A DNA stretch of 59,805 bases. Source: Ilumatobacteraceae bacterium (GTDB taxonomy: Bacteria > Actinomycetota > Acidimicrobiia > Acidimicrobiales > Ilumatobacteraceae). The stretch is from NCBI GenBank assembly GCA_017859785.1, contig JAFMMJ010000004.1, positions 1-59,805 on the forward strand, given 5' to 3'. Both the position numbers and the translations under genes were made by a program. Shown here in pieces: positions 49,386 to 59,805 of the stretch (within the stretch, counting starts at the first letter, position 1; each line of letters opens with the position of its first letter). The notes beneath the pieces are model-generated. The model worked only from the letters and a program-made list of their open reading frames with translations, had not been told where the DNA came from and made no database searches.

Positions 49386-50045
49386 ATGCCGGCGCCGGGT
49401 GAGCACCATCCCGCGTTCGAGGAGTACTGCGAGTGCATCTTCGAACTCCATGAGGATGACGTCGAGGTCATTCAGGCTCGAATCGCCGAGCGCCTGAACG
49501 TGAGCCGTCCAGCGGTCAGCGAGATGATCCGTCGGCTTTCCGCCGAGGGCTTGATCGACACCGATGGTGGAATCGCGCTCACACCAAGCGGAGTTGAATT
49601 GGCCCAGCGGGTGGTGCGTCGTCATCGGCTCGCGGAGCGGTTCCTCACCGACACGCTCGGTCTGTCGTGGGCCGAGGCCCACCACGAGGCCGGTAAATGG
49701 GAGCACATCATGTCCGACAGCGTGGAGGAGGCCCTCGACCGCCTCCTCGGTTCGCCGACGACCTGCCCGCACGGCAACCCGATCCCCGGCTCTGACTATG
49801 TGGCTCCCGATGTGCGCCCCCTCGCTGAGGCGTCGGTCGGCACGCGGTTCACCGTTCGGCGGATCCCTGAGGAACTCGAGTTCACCCCCGGTCTGCTCGA
49901 GTTCTTAGAGGAGAGCTCAATCCAGCCGGGCTACAGCGGCACGGTGACGGCTACCTCTCCCGACGGCACGATCACCATCGAGATCGAGGGGCGCCACGTT
50001 GGCGTCGGCGCGTTCGCCTCCGAGCGCATCCTCGTCACTGGCTGA
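49386..50045 (+). CDS. DtxR/IdeR/MntR family metal-dependent regulator
   Basis: Iron- or manganese-dependent repressor, 219 residues. Winged helix about 10-75 (IQARIAERLNVSRPAVSEMIRRLSAEGLIDTDGGIALTPSG), dimerisation and metal-binding domain about 76-145 with HRLAERFLTDTLGLSWAEAHHEAGKWEHIMSDSVEEAL and CPHGNPIPGS, and a C-terminal SH3/FeoA-like domain about 150-219. CPHGNPIP, with a Cys at the primary site, is the wording of iron-type DtxR/IdeR. It lies close to heme and cytochrome c genes. I found no perfect iron box in the window. Confidence 0.92.
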   Translation: MPAPGEHHPAFEEYCECIFELHEDDVEVIQARIAERLNVSRPAVSEMIRRLSAEGLIDTDGGIALTPSGVELAQRVVRRHRLAERFLTDTLGLSWAEAHHEAGKWEHIMSDSVEEALDRLLGSPTTCPHGNPIPGSDYVAPDVRPLAEASVGTRFTVRRIPEELEFTPGLLEFLEESSIQPGYSGTVTATSPDGTITIEIEGRHVGVGAFASERILVTG

Positions 50046-50052
50046 TCCCAGC

Positions 50053-50505
50053 ATGTCGCGCTCACCCCTCCTCCTCGTGTTCGCGCTCGCGCTCGGACCG
50101 GTCGCGGCCTGCGGCGAGACGTACATCGACACGAGCCTGATCGACTCCGTTCCCGACGAGAACACCGACAGCGCCGACACTTCAGCCGAAACGCCGGACC
50201 CAGCTCCGACGGACGAGAGCGGATCACGCGATTTCGTGGCCACCCTCGAACTCTTCGCACTCCATGCCCGTGAGATCTCTGAGGTCGTCGCCGATGACCG
50301 AGAGCGCGCCGCCTCCATGCTCGACGACCTCGAGGCCGACTGGTCGCTCATCGAGGACATCATCCGCGCCGAGCAACCCGACCGACTTTTCGGGTTTTCC
50401 CAAGCGGTCGATCTCGTTCGCAGCGGTGTCGAGCGGAACCGTCCGGCCGATGTCAGCAAAGGCTGGAAACTGCTCGACGACCTGAGCGCCGATTACCCGG
50501 CCTGA
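50053..50505 (+). CDS. small putative lipoprotein
   Basis: I do not recognise a family. The 150-residue protein has a signal peptide with lipobox PVAAC (Cys near residue 20), an Asp/Ser/Thr-rich linker (to about 57) and a helical domain (about 58-150; DFVATLELFALHAREISEVVADDRERAASMLDDLEADWSLIEDIIRAEQPDRLFGFSQAVDLVRSGVERN). ATG 50053 follows the DtxR stop by seven bases, suggesting cotranscription with the regulator. Overlaps helD by 13 bases at the 3' ends. Confidence 0.7.
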   Translation: MSRSPLLLVFALALGPVAACGETYIDTSLIDSVPDENTDSADTSAETPDPAPTDESGSRDFVATLELFALHAREISEVVADDRERAASMLDDLEADWSLIEDIIRAEQPDRLFGFSQAVDLVRSGVERNRPADVSKGWKLLDDLSADYPA

Positions 50506-52753: not shown

Positions 52754-53845
52754 ATGTCTGAGCCCACCGTCTCCGAGTCGCTGGGTGTCCCCTTCCTCGA
52801 CGCGGCCACGGGACGCCGGCCCCGACGCACTCCCGTCTGGTTCATGCGCCAAGCCGGCCGCCACCTTCCCGAGTACCGCGATGTCCGCGGCCCCGGCTCG
52901 ATCCTCGACGCGATCGGGCGGCCAGATGACGCGGCGGCGATCACCCTGCAGCCGGTGCGCCGCTACGGGGTCGACGCGGCGGTGCTGTACTCCGACATCG
53001 TCGTGCCCGCCCACGCGGTCGGGTTCGGCATCGATGTGGCTCCGGGTACGGGGCCCGTCGCCGAGCAGCCGTTCCGTTCAGTCAGTGATCTCGACCGCCT
53101 GCCGCCGTTGACCCCGGATCTCGTCGAGCACGTCGCCGAGACGGTGAGGATTCTCACCCGGGAACTCGATCCCGCGGTGCCCTTGCTCGCCTTCGCCGGG
53201 GCTCCGTTCACCGTCGGGAGCTATCTCATCGAGGGAGCGCCAAGCCGTACGTGGCGCCACACGAAAGCGTTGATGCACGGCGACCCGGCGCTTTGGCACC
53301 GCCTCATGGAGCGTCTCGCTCAGTCGGCGGTCGCCTTCATCGATACCCAAATCTCTCATGGGGCGCGGGCGTTCCAACTCTTCGACTCCTGGGCGGGAGC
53401 GCTCTCCCCCGCTGACTACCGGAATTTCGTGGCGCCGCACTCGACCGAGGTCTTCTCGCGACTCGCCGAGACGCATCCGGGGGTGCCTGGCATCCACTTC
53501 GGTATCGGTTGCGACCACCTGCTTGAGGACATGGCGGCCTGTGGCGCGTCGGTCATCGGTCTCGACTGGCGTACAGGAATCGCCGATGCCCGTCGACGTC
53601 TCGGCCCCGAGACGGTGATTCAGGGGAACCTCGATCCAGCGCTCGTCCTGGCTGGACACGACGTGGCCCTCGCTGGCGCCCGGTCGGTGCTCGCCGACAA
53701 CGCCGGTCACCCCGGTCACATCTTCAACCTCGGTCACGGTGTCCAGCCCGACACCGATCCCGCGGTGCTCGCCGCAGTGGTTGATCTCGTGCACTCGGGC
53801 AGCGGTGGACCCTCGACCCTCGACGATGGGACGATCAACGGATGA
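52754..53845 (+). CDS. hemE: uroporphyrinogen decarboxylase
   Basis: Decarboxylates uroporphyrinogen III to coproporphyrinogen III. The 363-residue protein has PVWFMRQAGRHLPEYRDVR (about 26-44, substrate-binding Arg residues), the catalytic Asp in LYSDIVVPAHAVGFGIDV, FAGAPFTVGSYLIEG and HIFNLGHGVQPDTDP. ATG 52754 is chosen from family similarity; TATCGT 11 bases upstream is a possible -10. First gene of hemE-cpfC-cgoX, each overlapping or close to the next. Confidence 0.96.
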   Translation: MSEPTVSESLGVPFLDAATGRRPRRTPVWFMRQAGRHLPEYRDVRGPGSILDAIGRPDDAAAITLQPVRRYGVDAAVLYSDIVVPAHAVGFGIDVAPGTGPVAEQPFRSVSDLDRLPPLTPDLVEHVAETVRILTRELDPAVPLLAFAGAPFTVGSYLIEGAPSRTWRHTKALMHGDPALWHRLMERLAQSAVAFIDTQISHGARAFQLFDSWAGALSPADYRNFVAPHSTEVFSRLAETHPGVPGIHFGIGCDHLLEDMAACGASVIGLDWRTGIADARRRLGPETVIQGNLDPALVLAGHDVALAGARSVLADNAGHPGHIFNLGHGVQPDTDPAVLAAVVDLVHSGSGGPSTLDDGTING

Positions 53846-54756
53846 GCCGAACCACCGCTGTCCTCCTTATGGCCTACGGCACGCCGAGGCATCCCGAGGA
53901 GATCGAGGCCTACTACACCGACATCCGTCGGGGGCGACCGCCGACCCCGGAGGCTCTCGCCGACCTCGTGGCCCGATACGACGCGATCGGTGGGATCTCC
54001 CCGCTCGCCCAACTCACCGAAGCGCAGCGCGATGCGTTGCAGGCAGCGCTCGACGAGCGGGCCCCTGACACGTATCGGGTCGATCTCGGACTCAAGCACG
54101 CGGACCCCAAGATCGAGGAGGCCACCGAGGCACTCCTCGCTGACGGTGTCGAACGAATCGTCGGCCTTGTCCTCGCCCCGCACTACTCGAGTTACTCGAT
54201 CGGCCAGTATCTCGGCCGCGCACGAGCGGTCGCCGAACCGGCTGGGGTGCCGGTTGGCGGGGTCGATTCGTGGGCGACCGAACCGGCGTTCATCGACTTC
54301 ATCTCGGCCGATCTCGAACGGCGACTCGAGGCGGTTCCCACCGGGTCACGGGTGCTCTTCACCGCTCACTCCTTGCCGCAGAGGATCATCGACGGCGGCG
54401 ATCCGTATCCCGACGAGTTGCGCGCCACGGCTGTCGCCGTGGCCGAGCGCCTCGGCCTCGAGGAGGGGCGCGACTGGTCGATCGCCTGGCAGAGCGCCGG
54501 TCGGACGCCCGAGCCGTGGATCGGCCCCGACATCCTCGAGGTGATCGACTCGCTCGCCGATGAGGGTTCGGTCCCCGGTGTGGTGGTGAGCGCCGTCGGT
54601 TTCGTCGCCGACCACCTCGAAGTGCTGTACGACCTCGACATCGAGGCGGCGAATCGAGCGGCGGCGCGAGGATTGGCCTTCGCTCGGACCGCTTGTGTGA
54701 ACGACGATGCCGCGGTGATGGGCGCTCTCGCCGACCGCGTCATCTCGGTGGGCTGA
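53842..54756 (+). CDS. cpfC: ferrochelatase, probably coproporphyrin III type
   Basis: Inserts Fe2+ into the porphyrin ring. The 304-residue protein has VLLMAYGTPRHPEEIEAYYTDIRRGRPP at the start, LAPHYSSYSIGQY, the catalytic His in LFTAHSLPQRI and the Glu in VGFVADHLEVLYDLDIEA. In Gram-positive and actinobacterial lineages this enzyme works on coproporphyrin III. Only one cysteine (RTACVND) lies near the C-terminus, so a [2Fe-2S] cluster is unlikely. Its ATG overlaps the hemE stop (ATGA). Confidence 0.94.
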   Translation: MSRTTAVLLMAYGTPRHPEEIEAYYTDIRRGRPPTPEALADLVARYDAIGGISPLAQLTEAQRDALQAALDERAPDTYRVDLGLKHADPKIEEATEALLADGVERIVGLVLAPHYSSYSIGQYLGRARAVAEPAGVPVGGVDSWATEPAFIDFISADLERRLEAVPTGSRVLFTAHSLPQRIIDGGDPYPDELRATAVAVAERLGLEEGRDWSIAWQSAGRTPEPWIGPDILEVIDSLADEGSVPGVVVSAVGFVADHLEVLYDLDIEAANRAAARGLAFARTACVNDDAAVMGALADRVISVG

Positions 54757-54776
54757 GCCGGGCGGGGAACAGCCGG

Positions 54777-56171
54777 ATGAGCGGATCGCCGTCGCGGATC
54801 GCCGTCATCGGCGCCGGCATCACCGGCCTCTCCGCGGCCCATGAGGCTGCGGTCGCTGGTGGCGACCGGGTGGAGGTGACGCTCTTCGACGGCTCGGGAC
54901 GCGCCGGCGGGCTCATCAAAACCTCGACCTTCGCCGGGCTGCGCGTCGACGAGGGGGCCGATGCGTTCCTCCGACGGGTTCCCGAGGCGCTAACTCTCGC
55001 CCGATCGGTCGGCCTTGACGAGCGACTCACCTCACCGACGGCTGGATCGGCGGCCGTCTGGGTCGACGGCCTCCGCCGACTTCCCGAGGGGCTCGTGCTC
55101 GGCGTGCCGACGTCGACTATCTCGCTCGCGAGGAGCCGACTCGTCTCCCCGGTTGGAGCCGCGCGAGCGCTGGCCGATCTCGTGTTGCCGCGACGCGCTC
55201 TCGATCACGACTCGATCGGCGCGTGGGTGCGGGGACGCCTCGGTGAGGAGGTCCACGACCGCTTGACCGATGCCCTCGTCGGAAGCATCTACGCCGCCGA
55301 CACCGACCGATTCAGCTTGGCCGCGGTGCCTCAACTCGACGCGCTCGCGCGTGGCGGGCGTTCGGCGATTCTCACCGCGCTACGCCAGCGGCGACCGAGC
55401 GACAGCGGGCCGGTGTTCGCCGCGCCGAGCGATGGCATGGGTTCGTTGGCCGACGCGGTGTTGACCGCCGCGGTTGCGGCCGGCGCGATGACCCGACTCG
55501 AAGCGCCAGTGGAGGCTGTCGAGGCCGGCGGCGGCGGTGTGCTCATCGACGGGGAGCGCTTCGAGGCCGCGATCCTCGCGACACCGGCCAGGGTGTCGGC
55601 GCGGCTCCTCGCCTCATCGGCCCCGGCCGCCGCAGCGGGTCTCGGCTCGATCGAGACGGCCGGCGTGGTGATGGTGACCCTCGCGATCCCCGGCGACTCG
55701 CTACCGGAGGCCTGTTCGGGTCTGAGCGGTTATCTGGTGCCGAAGTCCCGCCAACAGCGGGTGACCGCGGTGTCGTTCGCCTCCAACAAGTGGTCGCATC
55801 TCCGTCCGGCCGACGGGAGCCAGATCCTCCGAGTGTCCCTCGGCCGCGACGGCATGGACGTCAGCGACCTCGATGACGGGGAGGTGGTCGATTCGGTCGT
55901 TAGTGAGGTGTCGGATCATCTCGGCGCGCAGCTCGCGCCGAACGAGGTCCGAGTGACCCGCTGGCCATCCTCGTTCCCGCAGTATCGGCCCCATCACGGC
56001 GCGCTGGTGGCCACGATAGAGCGATCGCTTCCAGCGACGATCGTCGCCGCCGGAGCCTCCTTGCACGGCATTGGAGTGCCGGCGTGCGTCGGGAGCGGTC
56101 GCCGCGCCGCTCAGTCGGTGCTGAGCCGACTCGGCATCGACGGGCATCGGCCGGAACCGGTGCCAGACTGA
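54777..56171 (+). CDS. cgoX: coproporphyrinogen III oxidase (HemY/CgoX type)
   Basis: FAD enzyme oxidising coproporphyrinogen III (or protoporphyrinogen IX) to the porphyrin. The 464-residue protein has the FAD motif IAVIGAGITGLSAAHEA (9-25), GRAGGLIKTSTFAGLRVDEGADAF and ends AASLHGIGVPACVGSGRRAAQSVLSRLG, where the second FAD contact lies. With hemE and cpfC it covers steps of the coproporphyrin-dependent branch; the final decarboxylase ChdC is not in the window. ATG 54777 has GGGGAA 9 bases upstream. Confidence 0.93.
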   Translation: MSGSPSRIAVIGAGITGLSAAHEAAVAGGDRVEVTLFDGSGRAGGLIKTSTFAGLRVDEGADAFLRRVPEALTLARSVGLDERLTSPTAGSAAVWVDGLRRLPEGLVLGVPTSTISLARSRLVSPVGAARALADLVLPRRALDHDSIGAWVRGRLGEEVHDRLTDALVGSIYAADTDRFSLAAVPQLDALARGGRSAILTALRQRRPSDSGPVFAAPSDGMGSLADAVLTAAVAAGAMTRLEAPVEAVEAGGGGVLIDGERFEAAILATPARVSARLLASSAPAAAAGLGSIETAGVVMVTLAIPGDSLPEACSGLSGYLVPKSRQQRVTAVSFASNKWSHLRPADGSQILRVSLGRDGMDVSDLDDGEVVDSVVSEVSDHLGAQLAPNEVRVTRWPSSFPQYRPHHGALVATIERSLPATIVAAGASLHGIGVPACVGSGRRAAQSVLSRLGIDGHRPEPVPD

Positions 56172-56178
56172 TTCGGCG

Positions 56179-56895
56179 ATGGTCGCTGACAACCCCTCCC
56201 CCCGCCGTCGTTCGTTCCTCGTGCTGGCGCTCGCCTCGGTGTCGACCGCGGGCCTCGTCGGTTACGCGGCGGCCCGCGAGTCGGGTGGCGAACAATCCGC
56301 GATCGAGTCGGCGGCCGAGTCGGTGACGACGCTTTCTCCGCCGACGACCACCACGGCGGCGAGCACCTCCACGACCAGCACGACGATTCCGCCTACGACG
56401 AGCACCACCAGCACGACCGCTCCGCCCACCACCAGCACGACGAGCAGCACGACACTTCCGGCTCCCGAGCCGCCACCCACCGATGAGCGGGCTCCAGAGC
56501 CGGTGATCGAACTCGGCACGATCGAGATCCCGAAGATCGATGTGTCGATGACGATGTACGAGGGAATCCGTCTCTCCACCCTCGATCGTGGTCCGGGTCA
56601 TTGGCCGGGGACCGCGATGCCCGGCCAGGTCGGCAACGTGGTGGTCGCCGGCCACCGCACGAGCGGCCATCAGGTGTTCCGCAATATCGACGCGCTCGTC
56701 GAAGGTGACGAGATCTTGTTCACCGACACCGACGGCTCGGTGCATCGATATCGCGTGACGAGCTCGCGAATCGTCGTGCCGACGGAGGTCTGGATCGTCG
56801 ACCAGACGCCGACACCGACGGCGACGCTCTTCGCCTGTCATCCGCCCGGCTCGGTGCGCGAGCGCTACGTCGTGTTCGCCGAACTGGTGGCGTGA
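56179..56895 (+). CDS. sortase with Thr-rich stalk, coupled to lnt
   Basis: The 238-residue protein has a signal anchor (about 12-31), a long Thr/Ser/Pro stalk (about 48-100) and a sortase domain (about 110-238) with GQVGNVVVAGHRTSGHQVFRNIDAL (catalytic His) and TATLFACHPPGSVRERYVVFAEL (Cys and Arg). The sequence around the Cys (FACH) differs from the first sortase (TSCH), so the two probably have different substrates. TGA overlaps the lnt GTG, coupling wall anchoring to lipoprotein processing. Confidence 0.88.
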   Translation: MVADNPSPRRRSFLVLALASVSTAGLVGYAAARESGGEQSAIESAAESVTTLSPPTTTTAASTSTTSTTIPPTTSTTSTTAPPTTSTTSSTTLPAPEPPPTDERAPEPVIELGTIEIPKIDVSMTMYEGIRLSTLDRGPGHWPGTAMPGQVGNVVVAGHRTSGHQVFRNIDALVEGDEILFTDTDGSVHRYRVTSSRIVVPTEVWIVDQTPTPTATLFACHPPGSVRERYVVFAELVA

Positions 56896-58388
56896 GACGA
56901 CTGCTCGCCGGTCTGACGGCCGGCCTGGCCGTCGCGGCATCGATGCCGCCGTGGGGGTTCTGGCCACTCGGACTCATCGGCGTGATCATCCTGGGTGCCG
57001 CGACCACCGGCGGACGACGATCCCGTGCGGTCACCACCTTGTGGTTCGGCATCGCCTGGTTCGGTGTCGGCATGGTGTGGATGTGGTTCCTCACCCCGCC
57101 GGGCTACCTCTTCACCACTGCGCTCTTCGCCGGAGCCCACGCCCTCGCCGCGTTGACGACACCTCAAGCGCCGATTCCGCGTGCTCTCGCGCACACCCTC
57201 GTGGAAGCGGCCCGACTGGTGGCGCCCTTTGGCGGTGTTCCGTTAGCGACTATCGCGATCGGCCAGGCGGGAGGTCCGCTCCTCGGCATCGCGCGGGTGG
57301 GTGGGGTGATCGCCATCACCTGGGTCGTCTTCCACCTCGGGCTGTCGATCGGAACACGGCTGACGGCGGTGATCCGAGGTGACGCCATCCCCTCCTCGTG
57401 GGCGGCGATCCTCATCGCGCCTGCGACGCTCGTGGTGCTGGCCGCTATCGCGCCATCAGGTCGCGATCTCGGCGACGGTCTCACGATCGCTGCGGTGCAG
57501 GGTGGGGGACGGCAGGGAACCTCGGCGCTCGAGGTCCCGTCGAGGCTCGTGACCGAGGCGCACCTCGCCGCGACGGCCGAGATCGAGGACTCAGCTGATC
57601 TCGATCTGGTCGTCTGGCCCGAGAACACGATCGACGTCAACGGTATGGCGTTCGCCGATAGCCAGCAAGCCGTCGAGGTCGCCCTTGAGGCGAGCCGTCT
57701 TGGCGTTCCGTTGTTGGTCGGGGTGACCGAGGACGTGGCGACCGCCCGGGCGCTTGATCTCACCGACAACGACGGCCGGGGGTTCGTGAACGCCCAGTAT
57801 GTGGTGACTGGCTCGGGGGCCGCCGAGGGCGCCTATGTCAAGGTGCGCCGCGTCCCCTATGGCGAGTACGTGCCGCTCCGCTCCCTGCTCGAATCGCTCG
57901 GTGCCCCGGTCGGTCAAATCCCCCGTGACGCGGTCGCGGGTGCCGGCCCCGCCGTCTTGGATCTGCCGGATGGTCAGCGGGTCGGCGTCGCAATCTCTTG
58001 GGAGATCTTTTTCGGTGATCGGGTCCGCGATGGCGTGCGTGAGGGAGGCTCGCTCGTCATCAACCCGACGAACGGCGCGAGCTACACGTGGACCGTGCTC
58101 CAGACCCAGCAGATCGCGTCCAGTCGTCTTCGGGCCGTGGAGTCGGCGCGATGGGTCGTGCAGGCGGCACCAACGGGCTTCTCCGCGGTGATCGATCCCG
58201 AGGGGCAGGTGCTCGAGCGGACCGACGTGTCTGAGCGTCGGGTGATCGTGGCCGAGGTTCGTCTGCGCGAGGGCCTCACGTGGTACTCGCGTCTCGGTGA
58301 CGCGCCGCTCGCGGTGCTGCTGGTGCTCGGACTGCTGGTGACGTCGGGGGCGAGTCGGCGATCTGCGAGCGTCACACCTCGAGCATGA
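56892..58388 (+). CDS. lnt: apolipoprotein N-acyltransferase-like protein, catalytic Cys replaced by Ser
   Basis: Lnt adds the third acyl chain to lipoproteins. The 498-residue protein has an N-terminal membrane bundle of about six helices (to about 186), a nitrilase-like periplasmic domain and a last helix (about 470-488). The catalytic triad is Glu-Lys-Cys in the family. Here Glu244 (VVWPENT) and Lys317 (KVRRVPYGEYVPL) are kept, but the nucleophile position is Ser369 in GVAISWEIFF (family: AICYE). The codon is TCT at 57996-57998, one base from TGT. The enzyme may be inactive, or an odd serine acyltransferase. Start GTG 56892 overlaps the sortase stop. Confidence 0.87.
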   Translation: MRRLLAGLTAGLAVAASMPPWGFWPLGLIGVIILGAATTGGRRSRAVTTLWFGIAWFGVGMVWMWFLTPPGYLFTTALFAGAHALAALTTPQAPIPRALAHTLVEAARLVAPFGGVPLATIAIGQAGGPLLGIARVGGVIAITWVVFHLGLSIGTRLTAVIRGDAIPSSWAAILIAPATLVVLAAIAPSGRDLGDGLTIAAVQGGGRQGTSALEVPSRLVTEAHLAATAEIEDSADLDLVVWPENTIDVNGMAFADSQQAVEVALEASRLGVPLLVGVTEDVATARALDLTDNDGRGFVNAQYVVTGSGAAEGAYVKVRRVPYGEYVPLRSLLESLGAPVGQIPRDAVAGAGPAVLDLPDGQRVGVAISWEIFFGDRVRDGVREGGSLVINPTNGASYTWTVLQTQQIASSRLRAVESARWVVQAAPTGFSAVIDPEGQVLERTDVSERRVIVAEVRLREGLTWYSRLGDAPLAVLLVLGLLVTSGASRRSASVTPRA

Positions 58389-58821: not shown

Positions 58822-58980
58822 GCGTTGAGCCTCGCAGGTCTCCGAGCCTGACGGGAAGCCCGTTTCCTGAAGGTCGTTAGAATTCGGCTACTCCGACGAC
58901 TTGTTCGGACAAAACTGCGAGACATCGGTCGCATCGACCTCTTGGACACCAGAGGCCGATGACGATGTATGGACAGAACG
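58822..58980. other. intergenic region between dtd and the sigma factor gene
   Basis: The gap holds a short hairpin, ACGGG and CCCGT (58851-58855, 58859-58863), a TAGAAT hexamer at 58878-58883 that would suit a -10 for the sigma gene (leader about 90 bases) and a near-palindrome TTGTTCGGACAA at 58901-58912. No gene is evident. Confidence 0.4.
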
Positions 58981-59805
58981 ATGACGAACGACGACTCTCG
59001 AGCGGCGTCAGCCGGCGCGGCGGATGCGACCACGGTCGCCGCCTACCTCGCAGGGGATCGCTCGGCGCTCGCGACTATCTGGGATCGCTACGGGGACACG
59101 CTCTACGACACGGCCGCGGCGATGACGGGCAACCGAGAGGACGCTGCGGACATGGTCCAGGACGTCTTCGTTTTGGCCGCGGAGAAACTCGGCCAACTGC
59201 GCGATCCCACGCGCTTGAAGCCGTGGCTCTTCGCCATCCTGCGCAACGAGGTCTATCGACGTTCGCGTCGACGTTCGAAGTCGGTCGTGACCGACTTCTC
59301 CGAGGCGGGCGGTGAGGTCATGCTCCCCCCGACCCCCTCAGAGACCGACGCGGTGGAGGACGCGGCCGAGTTCGATGATCTCGCCGAATTGCTCCGCGGC
59401 GCCGCCCGCGGGCTCGACTCTCGCGATCAGCTCGTGCTCGAACTGACGATGCGCCAAGACCTGTCCGGCAACGACCTCGCCGATGCCCTCGGGGTGACGC
59501 CACAACAGAGTTACGGGCTCGTGCATCGGATGCGCGAGCGCACCGAGCGGAGCCTCGGCGCGTATTGCGTGGCACGCCGCGGCCGGAAGGAGTGCGAGGA
59601 GCTCGCGTCGATCCTGTCCGACTGGGATGGCGAGTTCTCCGTGCTGGTCCGCAAGCGCGTCGCTCGACACGTCGATGCCTGCTCCACGTGTGAGCGCACT
59701 CGTCGGCGTTTCGCCCCGCTCGCCCTCATCGGCGCCGCCCCCGCCTTCGCCGCGCCTCCGGGACTTCGGGATCGCGTCCTCGACCTGCTCGGCGCGTCGG
59801 GTGCG
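58981..59805 (+). CDS. ECF-like sigma-70 factor with C-terminal anti-sigma zinc motif (cut by window end)
   Basis: The first 275 residues are visible; no stop appears before the window end. Region 2 (about 18-93) shows AYLAGDRSALATIWDRYGDTLYDTAAAMTGNREDAADMVQDVFVLAAEKLGQLRDPTRLKPWLFAILRNEVYRR; region 4 (about 130-196) has LDSRDQLVLELTMRQDLSGNDLADALGVTPQQSYGLVHRMRERTERSLG. Then comes a zinc anti-sigma-like motif: Cys205 (CEELASILSDWDGEFSVLVRKRVARHVDACSTC), His230, Cys234 and Cys237. Such Cys/His-x3-Cys-x2-Cys motifs normally belong to separate ZAS anti-sigma factors. The start ATG 58981 is preceded by a weak GGAC. Confidence 0.87.
   Translation, partial: MTNDDSRAASAGAADATTVAAYLAGDRSALATIWDRYGDTLYDTAAAMTGNREDAADMVQDVFVLAAEKLGQLRDPTRLKPWLFAILRNEVYRRSRRRSKSVVTDFSEAGGEVMLPPTPSETDAVEDAAEFDDLAELLRGAARGLDSRDQLVLELTMRQDLSGNDLADALGVTPQQSYGLVHRMRERTERSLGAYCVARRGRKECEELASILSDWDGEFSVLVRKRVARHVDACSTCERTRRRFAPLALIGAAPAFAAPPGLRDRVLDLLGASGA

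Follow-up and report, generated by a model that had tools for sequence, protein, structure and literature searches.

Serine at the nucleophile position of Lnt-like proteins throughout an actinobacterial order: a probable serine-ester acyltransferase

Introduction

The mechanism proposed for Lnt in the consulted passages of PMC5500888 proceeds through a thiolate and a thioester. In the window analyzed here (the whole stretch of 59,805 nucleotides, from an Ilumatobacteraceae bacterium), a full-length Lnt homologue carries serine where that catalytic cysteine should be. Is the serine an error, the mark of a dying or inactive relative, or the nucleophile of an enzyme that works through an oxygen ester? 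The analysis presented below suggests that the protein is probably a functional, Lnt-like, serine-ester membrane acyltransferase of the lipoprotein pathway, where we infer the activity, the ester and the lipoprotein-amine acceptor alike.

Results

The gene and its catalytic residues

In the predicted protein (Table 1), the membrane domain LNT_N (PF20154) is followed by the nitrilase domain CN_hydrolase (PF00795), both above cut-off. The protein scored 180.6 bits against the TIGR00546 lnt equivalog cut-off of 132.9, and an initial sequence-only reading, which had described a full-length gene without signs of decay, was borne out. The nucleophile motif is AISWE. When aligned to solved E. coli Lnt, AISWEIFFGD falls on AICYEIILGE (6q3a) and on AISYEIILGE (C387S chains), which places Ser369 on Cys387, as that reading had claimed. 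The remaining catalytic residues of Lnt (Glu267, Lys335 and Glu343) are present as Glu244, Lys317 and Glu325, and the catalytic cysteine itself is replaced by Ser369. By sequence, the top solved chain was 8b0m_A, the entry of a C387S mutant. An AlphaFold2 model built on 6 alignment rows had a mean pLDDT of 61.3, too poor for active-site geometry; using this low-confidence model, the best solved matches in Foldseek were Lnt structures (E ∼1e-20, TM ∼0.49).

Table 1. Coordinates in the window of the Lnt homologue, its upstream genes and the residues discussed.
Feature	Position	Strand	Basis
hemE, hemH and hemG-type genes upstream of lnt	52886..56171	+	PF01208, PF00762, PF01593
Sortase gene, overlaps lnt start	56179..56895	+	PF04203, 115.5 bits
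Lnt homologue, serine nucleophile	56892..58388	+	498 aa, GTG start; TIGR00546, LNT_N and CN_hydrolase
Glu244, putative general base (E. coli Glu267)	57621..57623	+	Invariant in 265/265 rows
Lys317 (E. coli Lys335)	57840..57842	+	Invariant in 265/265 rows
Glu325 (E. coli Glu343)	57864..57866	+	Invariant in 265/265 rows
Ser369 codon TCT, nucleophile position (E. coli Cys387)	57996..57998	+	Sequence, alignment and tree clade
Glu371 (E. coli Glu389)	58002..58004	+	Glu in 259/265 rows, Asp in 6/265
Gly395 (E. coli Asp413, by alignment and counting)	58074..58076	+	Asn/Asp in 105/117 Cys rows and 1/146 Ser rows
Gln407 (E. coli His425, by alignment and counting)	58110..58112	+	His in 95/117 Cys rows and 13/146 Ser rows

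Serine and cysteine in the order, class and phylum

The lnt loci sampled came from relatives, from evenly spread draws of both the class and the phylum, and from named records (seven loci, two of which were identical in the Lnt segment to loci already sampled). The nucleophile column was read by profile alignment, and identical segments entered the counts a single time; a score limit excluded L109, a nitrilase outside the Lnt family. One lnt in the source genome (1.96 Mb, 114 contigs, 98.8% complete) exceeds the TIGR00546 cut-off, and three weak matches fall below it. A second lnt with an intact cysteine, which had been suggested as something to look for, was not found above the family cut-off in this genome by profile search.

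Within the order, 83 genomes were searched and 62 had a readable Lnt, with serine in all 62. Serine was the only form in 61 of these, and one genome (G055, loci L086 and L005) was the sole order genome read to carry a serine and a cysteine Lnt together. The other 21 of the 83, some of them incomplete, had no Lnt match above cut-off. Elsewhere in the class, 104 of the 111 genomes searched were readable, 65 with serine and 39 with cysteine. Outside the class, family f56 had serine in 13/13 readable genomes (at least 16 were searched, and three listed ones had no Lnt above cut-off). Rows from the phylum outside the class numbered 74 with cysteine and 15 with serine (13 from f56 and two second copies in f78), counts that are not a random sample, since only part of the matches was read: the 30 best-scoring ones and 59 that we selected. 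Across all 265 distinct segments the site was serine in 146, cysteine in 119, and nothing else.

Several individual genomes are described here in their own right. Two adjacent serine-type Lnt genes, with motifs ISFEGSF and LSYEATV, occur in G083 (L094), the second being divergent. One f40 genome (G084, L127) has an ISWE Lnt of the S1 type defined below, the other seven f40 rows read having cysteine; horizontal transfer or a foreign contig may be responsible. In G003, which belongs to the window's genus and is about 92% complete, neither an Lgt match nor an Lnt above cut-off was found.

History of the two forms

Serine rows were placed in four groups: S1 (66 rows: the order, three named records and the f40 genome G084), S2 (65 rows from f30, f33, f35, f38, f41, f46, f49 and f50), S3 (the 13 f56 rows) and S4 (the two f78 second copies). 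In a 234-row tree the window protein sits in a 65-row clade with a support of 100, every row of which has serine. Five Ser/Cys changes were needed on both the FastTree (234 rows) and quick IQ-TREE (153 rows) topologies, and four on an IQ-TREE of 51 rows from which the motif and column 395 had been removed, where starred branches force at least three. S1 grouped with Cys-Lnts of other actinobacteria (98, starred) and S4 with an f73 Cys-Lnt (100, starred). Run on this smaller set, the AU test did not reject S1 and S2 as a single clade (p 0.188), and the number of serine origins is therefore not fixed. Change counts carry no direction; cysteine is the general state of Lnt, and for this reason we place cysteine first. 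A reversion from serine to cysteine in f44, to which the trees and a Glu395 in both f44 rows point, is not claimed, since a single clade of that group's serine rows was not rejected (AU p 0.386, likewise on a reduced set of rows). The two f78 second copies, presumably counterparts of the mycobacterial protein BCG_2279c, fall in a different group from the window protein on the best trees, a comparison made with the f78 rows.

Conservation and selection

Equivalents of Glu267, Lys335 and Glu343 were kept in 265/265 segments (146 Ser and 119 Cys), so that the preservation of Glu244 and Lys317 first noticed in the window extends to the entire sample. In S1, 24 positions besides 369 are invariant, among them 244, 317, 325 and 371; position 369 is invariant there by construction, because S1 rows were picked by family and by serine. 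Overall, dN/dS was mostly near 0.14. It did not exceed 0.151 in the 12 close pairs taken from families other than f33 (seven of f1, plus a single pair from each of five further families), and 90 f33 pairs had a median of 0.137 and a maximum of 0.835. Purifying selection combined with an intact catalytic set looks like the picture of a gene in use.

Switching between TCN and AGY at codon 369 (at least 8 changes on the 234-row tree) was considered as proof of an active serine and dropped, because two serines used as controls, 397 and 411, switched 13 and 8 times, respectively, in fewer rows.

Nine f22 genomes of the order, at 96–97% completeness, contain Lgt and no Lnt above cut-off, and some lineages of the order may have lost Lnt. 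If Lnt is dispensable for some members, its retention elsewhere suggests use. Genomes with Lgt matches and no Lnt found above cut-off occur in both f22 (e.g. G112, G116 and G145) and f26 (G067 and G178).

Columns that change with the swap

A column was counted as separating when the residues that together make up 85% or more of its Cys rows occurred in no more than 15% of the rows in three or more of the four Ser groups; columns 369 and 395 alone separated in this way. For these comparisons the Cys rows number 117, as two f44 rows, both with Glu at 395, were set apart. Among Ser rows, Asp at 395 occurs once, in L086 of G055, the order genome with copies of both kinds. Eight f73 rows and three f91 rows are among the 12 Cys exceptions, and on the larger trees f73 lies near S4 and f91 near f56 (with weak support for f91–f56); judged from these sequences, the f73 and f91 exceptions would fit a permissive change before the swap. 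On starred branches there were 4 independent pairs, with an average of 2.5 concordant, none discordant and a median p of 0.25. Column 395 is thus treated as a lead only, the independent events being too few for significance. By counting, it lies two residues past the equivalent of E. coli Ser411, which, in passages of PMC5500888, is within hydrogen-bonding distance of Cys387.

The equivalent of His425, a residue that the same passages propose to raise the nucleophilic character of Cys387 (PMC5500888), is His among Ser rows only in f56; in the other three Ser groups different residues take its place. Column 118, aligned to E. coli Trp148, has Trp in 111/117 Cys rows and Leu in the window protein; no S1 row has Trp there (65 have another residue and one has a gap). 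At position 370, which follows the nucleophile, Trp is found in 54/66 S1 rows. In E. coli, Gly145 of the loop that holds Trp148 contacts Tyr388 (PMC5500888, same passages). A looser scan returned further columns where two or more Ser groups have in common a residue that is infrequent among Cys rows. Taken as sequence patterns, the changes at 118, 370, 395 and 407 are compatible with either retuning or degradation of the active site.

Gene neighborhood and the lipoprotein pathway

The lnt GTG overlaps the sortase stop codon at 56893–56895. The coupling to a sortase gene seen in the sequence-only reading is therefore real in the window, but it is not general: of the 65 order and named loci, many of which have short flanks, 27 have a sortase homologue beside lnt, and in L197, L198 and L199 hemG is followed directly by lnt. 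Of the 35 S1 loci that span 5.5 kb or more, 21 have a hemG-type gene upstream of lnt and in the same orientation, and the arrangement hemE-hemH-hemG-(sortase)-lnt is frequent. None of the 17 listed S2 rows gave a hem match near lnt. A dtd gene was found in 32/65 of the order and named loci. In many relatives, as in the window (52886–58388), lnt ends the hemE-hemH-hemG cluster. Beyond lnt, at 58969–59805, is a sigma-70 region 2 protein that runs off the contig end and has a C-terminal His-Cys-Cys motif, which we take to resemble the zinc-finger part of an anti-sigma factor; a homologue of it lies near lnt in G009, G014, G027 and G036.

In seven relatives' loci lgt lies at most about 6 kb from lnt (L197 to L200, L068, L023 and L017), four of which, L197 to L200, were chosen because the two genes were already known to be close on one contig. 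The two genes are far apart or on different contigs in 6/10 other f1 genomes covered by both the lnt and the Lgt searches of the class, and apart where seen in the window's genus. Lgt matches were obtained in 143/148 class genomes and in 12/16 genomes of the window's genus, and LspA was found in the source genome. Neither a family search for Lgt, which also missed Bacillus subtilis among the controls, nor a search with a 62-aa Lgt piece, run without a positive control, gave a match in the source genome. Since 12 of the 16 genus members do have an Lgt match, the missing lgt is likely an assembly gap. The idea that lgt lies just past the contig end was dropped, because lgt and lnt are apart in this genus. 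On the evidence of these matches, the lipoprotein substrate pathway is present in the group, and in the source genome Lgt is missing from either the assembly or the organism. A simple pattern scan identified one lipobox-type ORF in the window (49999–50502).

Discussion

A serine ester as the preferred explanation

By alignment and tree position, the window protein belongs to a known enzyme family and represents a genuine variant shared across its clade; the swap appears to reflect an actual shift in chemistry, not a mistake in the sequence or a gene in decay. An inactive protein, a serine ester and another role had all been put forward from the sequence; we favor the ester because the serine is conserved together with the rest of the catalytic set. 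In the mechanism envisaged, which is modeled on that of Lnt, Glu244 would deprotonate Ser369, and a phospholipid would donate an acyl chain to this serine, forming an oxygen ester. The oxyanion would be stabilized by helix amides and by Lys317, itself held by Glu325, and the chain would pass to the amino group of a lipoprotein's N-terminal cysteine. We refer to the protein as an Lnt-like serine variant and not as a proven Lnt, because the catalytic cysteine is absent and we only infer the activity. Counted against a serine-ester Lnt are the inactive C387S control, the failure of BCG_2279c to act as a replacement, the changes at His425, the unfound Lgt, the distance between lgt and lnt, the f33 maximum dN/dS of 0.835 and the AU p of 0.188.

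More broadly, and more tentatively, it is quite conceivable that several actinobacterial lineages, including nearly the whole order, separately swapped the Lnt cysteine, which is supposed to be indispensable, for serine together with a change after the active-site Thr-Asn, and that they use an oxygen ester to acylate lipoproteins or for a related acyl transfer. These would be natural serine-nucleophile acyltransferases of the nitrilase superfamily.

Alternative explanations

A pseudoenzyme that transfers nothing and is retained as a partner that binds lipids or lipoproteins, or to assist another enzyme, is in our view unlikely. It has a precedent in BCG_2279c, which according to sections of PMC3850990 fails to replace the functional BCG_2070c; in those sections the authors judge N-acylation unlikely and favor a contributive role, while leaving activity under other conditions or on other lipoproteins possible. 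The E. coli C387S enzyme likewise does not complete transfer (excerpts of PMC6828757), and the His425 position is altered in three Ser groups. However, the source genome has no Cys-Lnt above cut-off to be helped, and 61 of the 62 readable order genomes have serine only. Moreover, across the 146 Ser rows the general base, the Lys and the second Glu stay fixed, and in the whole sample only Ser or Cys occupies the nucleophile site.

We consider it rather improbable that the enzyme is active on a different acceptor or with a different outcome, e.g. as a phospholipase or a transacylase to alcohol or water, and not on the lipoprotein amine. Oxygen esters pass acyl groups to amines less readily than thioesters do, and this chemistry, along with the changed positions 395 and 407, speaks for such an enzyme; yet lgt is near lnt in seven relatives' loci, and the sequence passes the Lnt equivalog cut-off.

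Lastly, an error of sequencing or assembly at one base (TCT for TGT), raised at the outset because TCT is one base from a Cys codon, has a negligible chance of being correct and is refuted as a general explanation, since serine is common to the whole clade, stands at that column in 146 rows from many assemblies, and is written with all four TCN and both AGY codons among 138 Ser entries.

Implications

If the serine-ester reading is true, a thioester would not be obligatory for Lnt, given a whole order in which the sole Lnt homologue found uses serine. The order would also offer natural enzymes in which to study how an ester can serve as acyl donor to an amine, and whether lipoproteins of these bacteria are tri- or diacylated would become a testable question. 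Lnt has been discussed as an antibacterial target (parts of PMC8048626), and thiol-reactive Lnt inhibitors could then meet naturally insensitive targets.

Comparison with known systems

Our full-text literature searches, with most subscription papers outside their coverage, did not turn up any lineage described as having a serine Lnt for its sole copy, and gave only BCG_2279c (with Rv2262c/Rv2261c) as a natural Cys-to-Ser Lnt in print. E. coli Lnt (TIGR00546; 5n6h, 5vrh and 8b0m) shares the membrane and nitrilase domains and the Glu-Lys-Glu set with the window protein, which differs in having Ser for the catalytic Cys, Trp370, Leu118, Gly395 and Gln407. The C387S mutant (5vrh and 8b0m) has, like the window protein, a Ser nucleophile and an intact Glu-Lys. 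In the excerpts seen, it forms an oxygen-ester acyl-enzyme and serves as an inactive control for N-acyl transfer (PMC6828757), is cited as forming the acyl-enzyme without detectable activity (PMC3850990), and is credited with 'low activity' (PMC10313180). It is, however, a laboratory mutant with inactive or low transfer and does not carry the natural changes at 118, 370, 395 and 407. The second mycobacterial homologue, BCG_2279c or Rv2262c/Rv2261c, has Ser in place of Cys387 (PMC3850990, sections consulted) and is thus, like the window protein, a natural Cys387-to-Ser change in an actinobacterial Lnt homologue; but BCG_2279c sits beside a functional Cys-Lnt, whereas the serine Lnt of the window is the only copy found in its genome.
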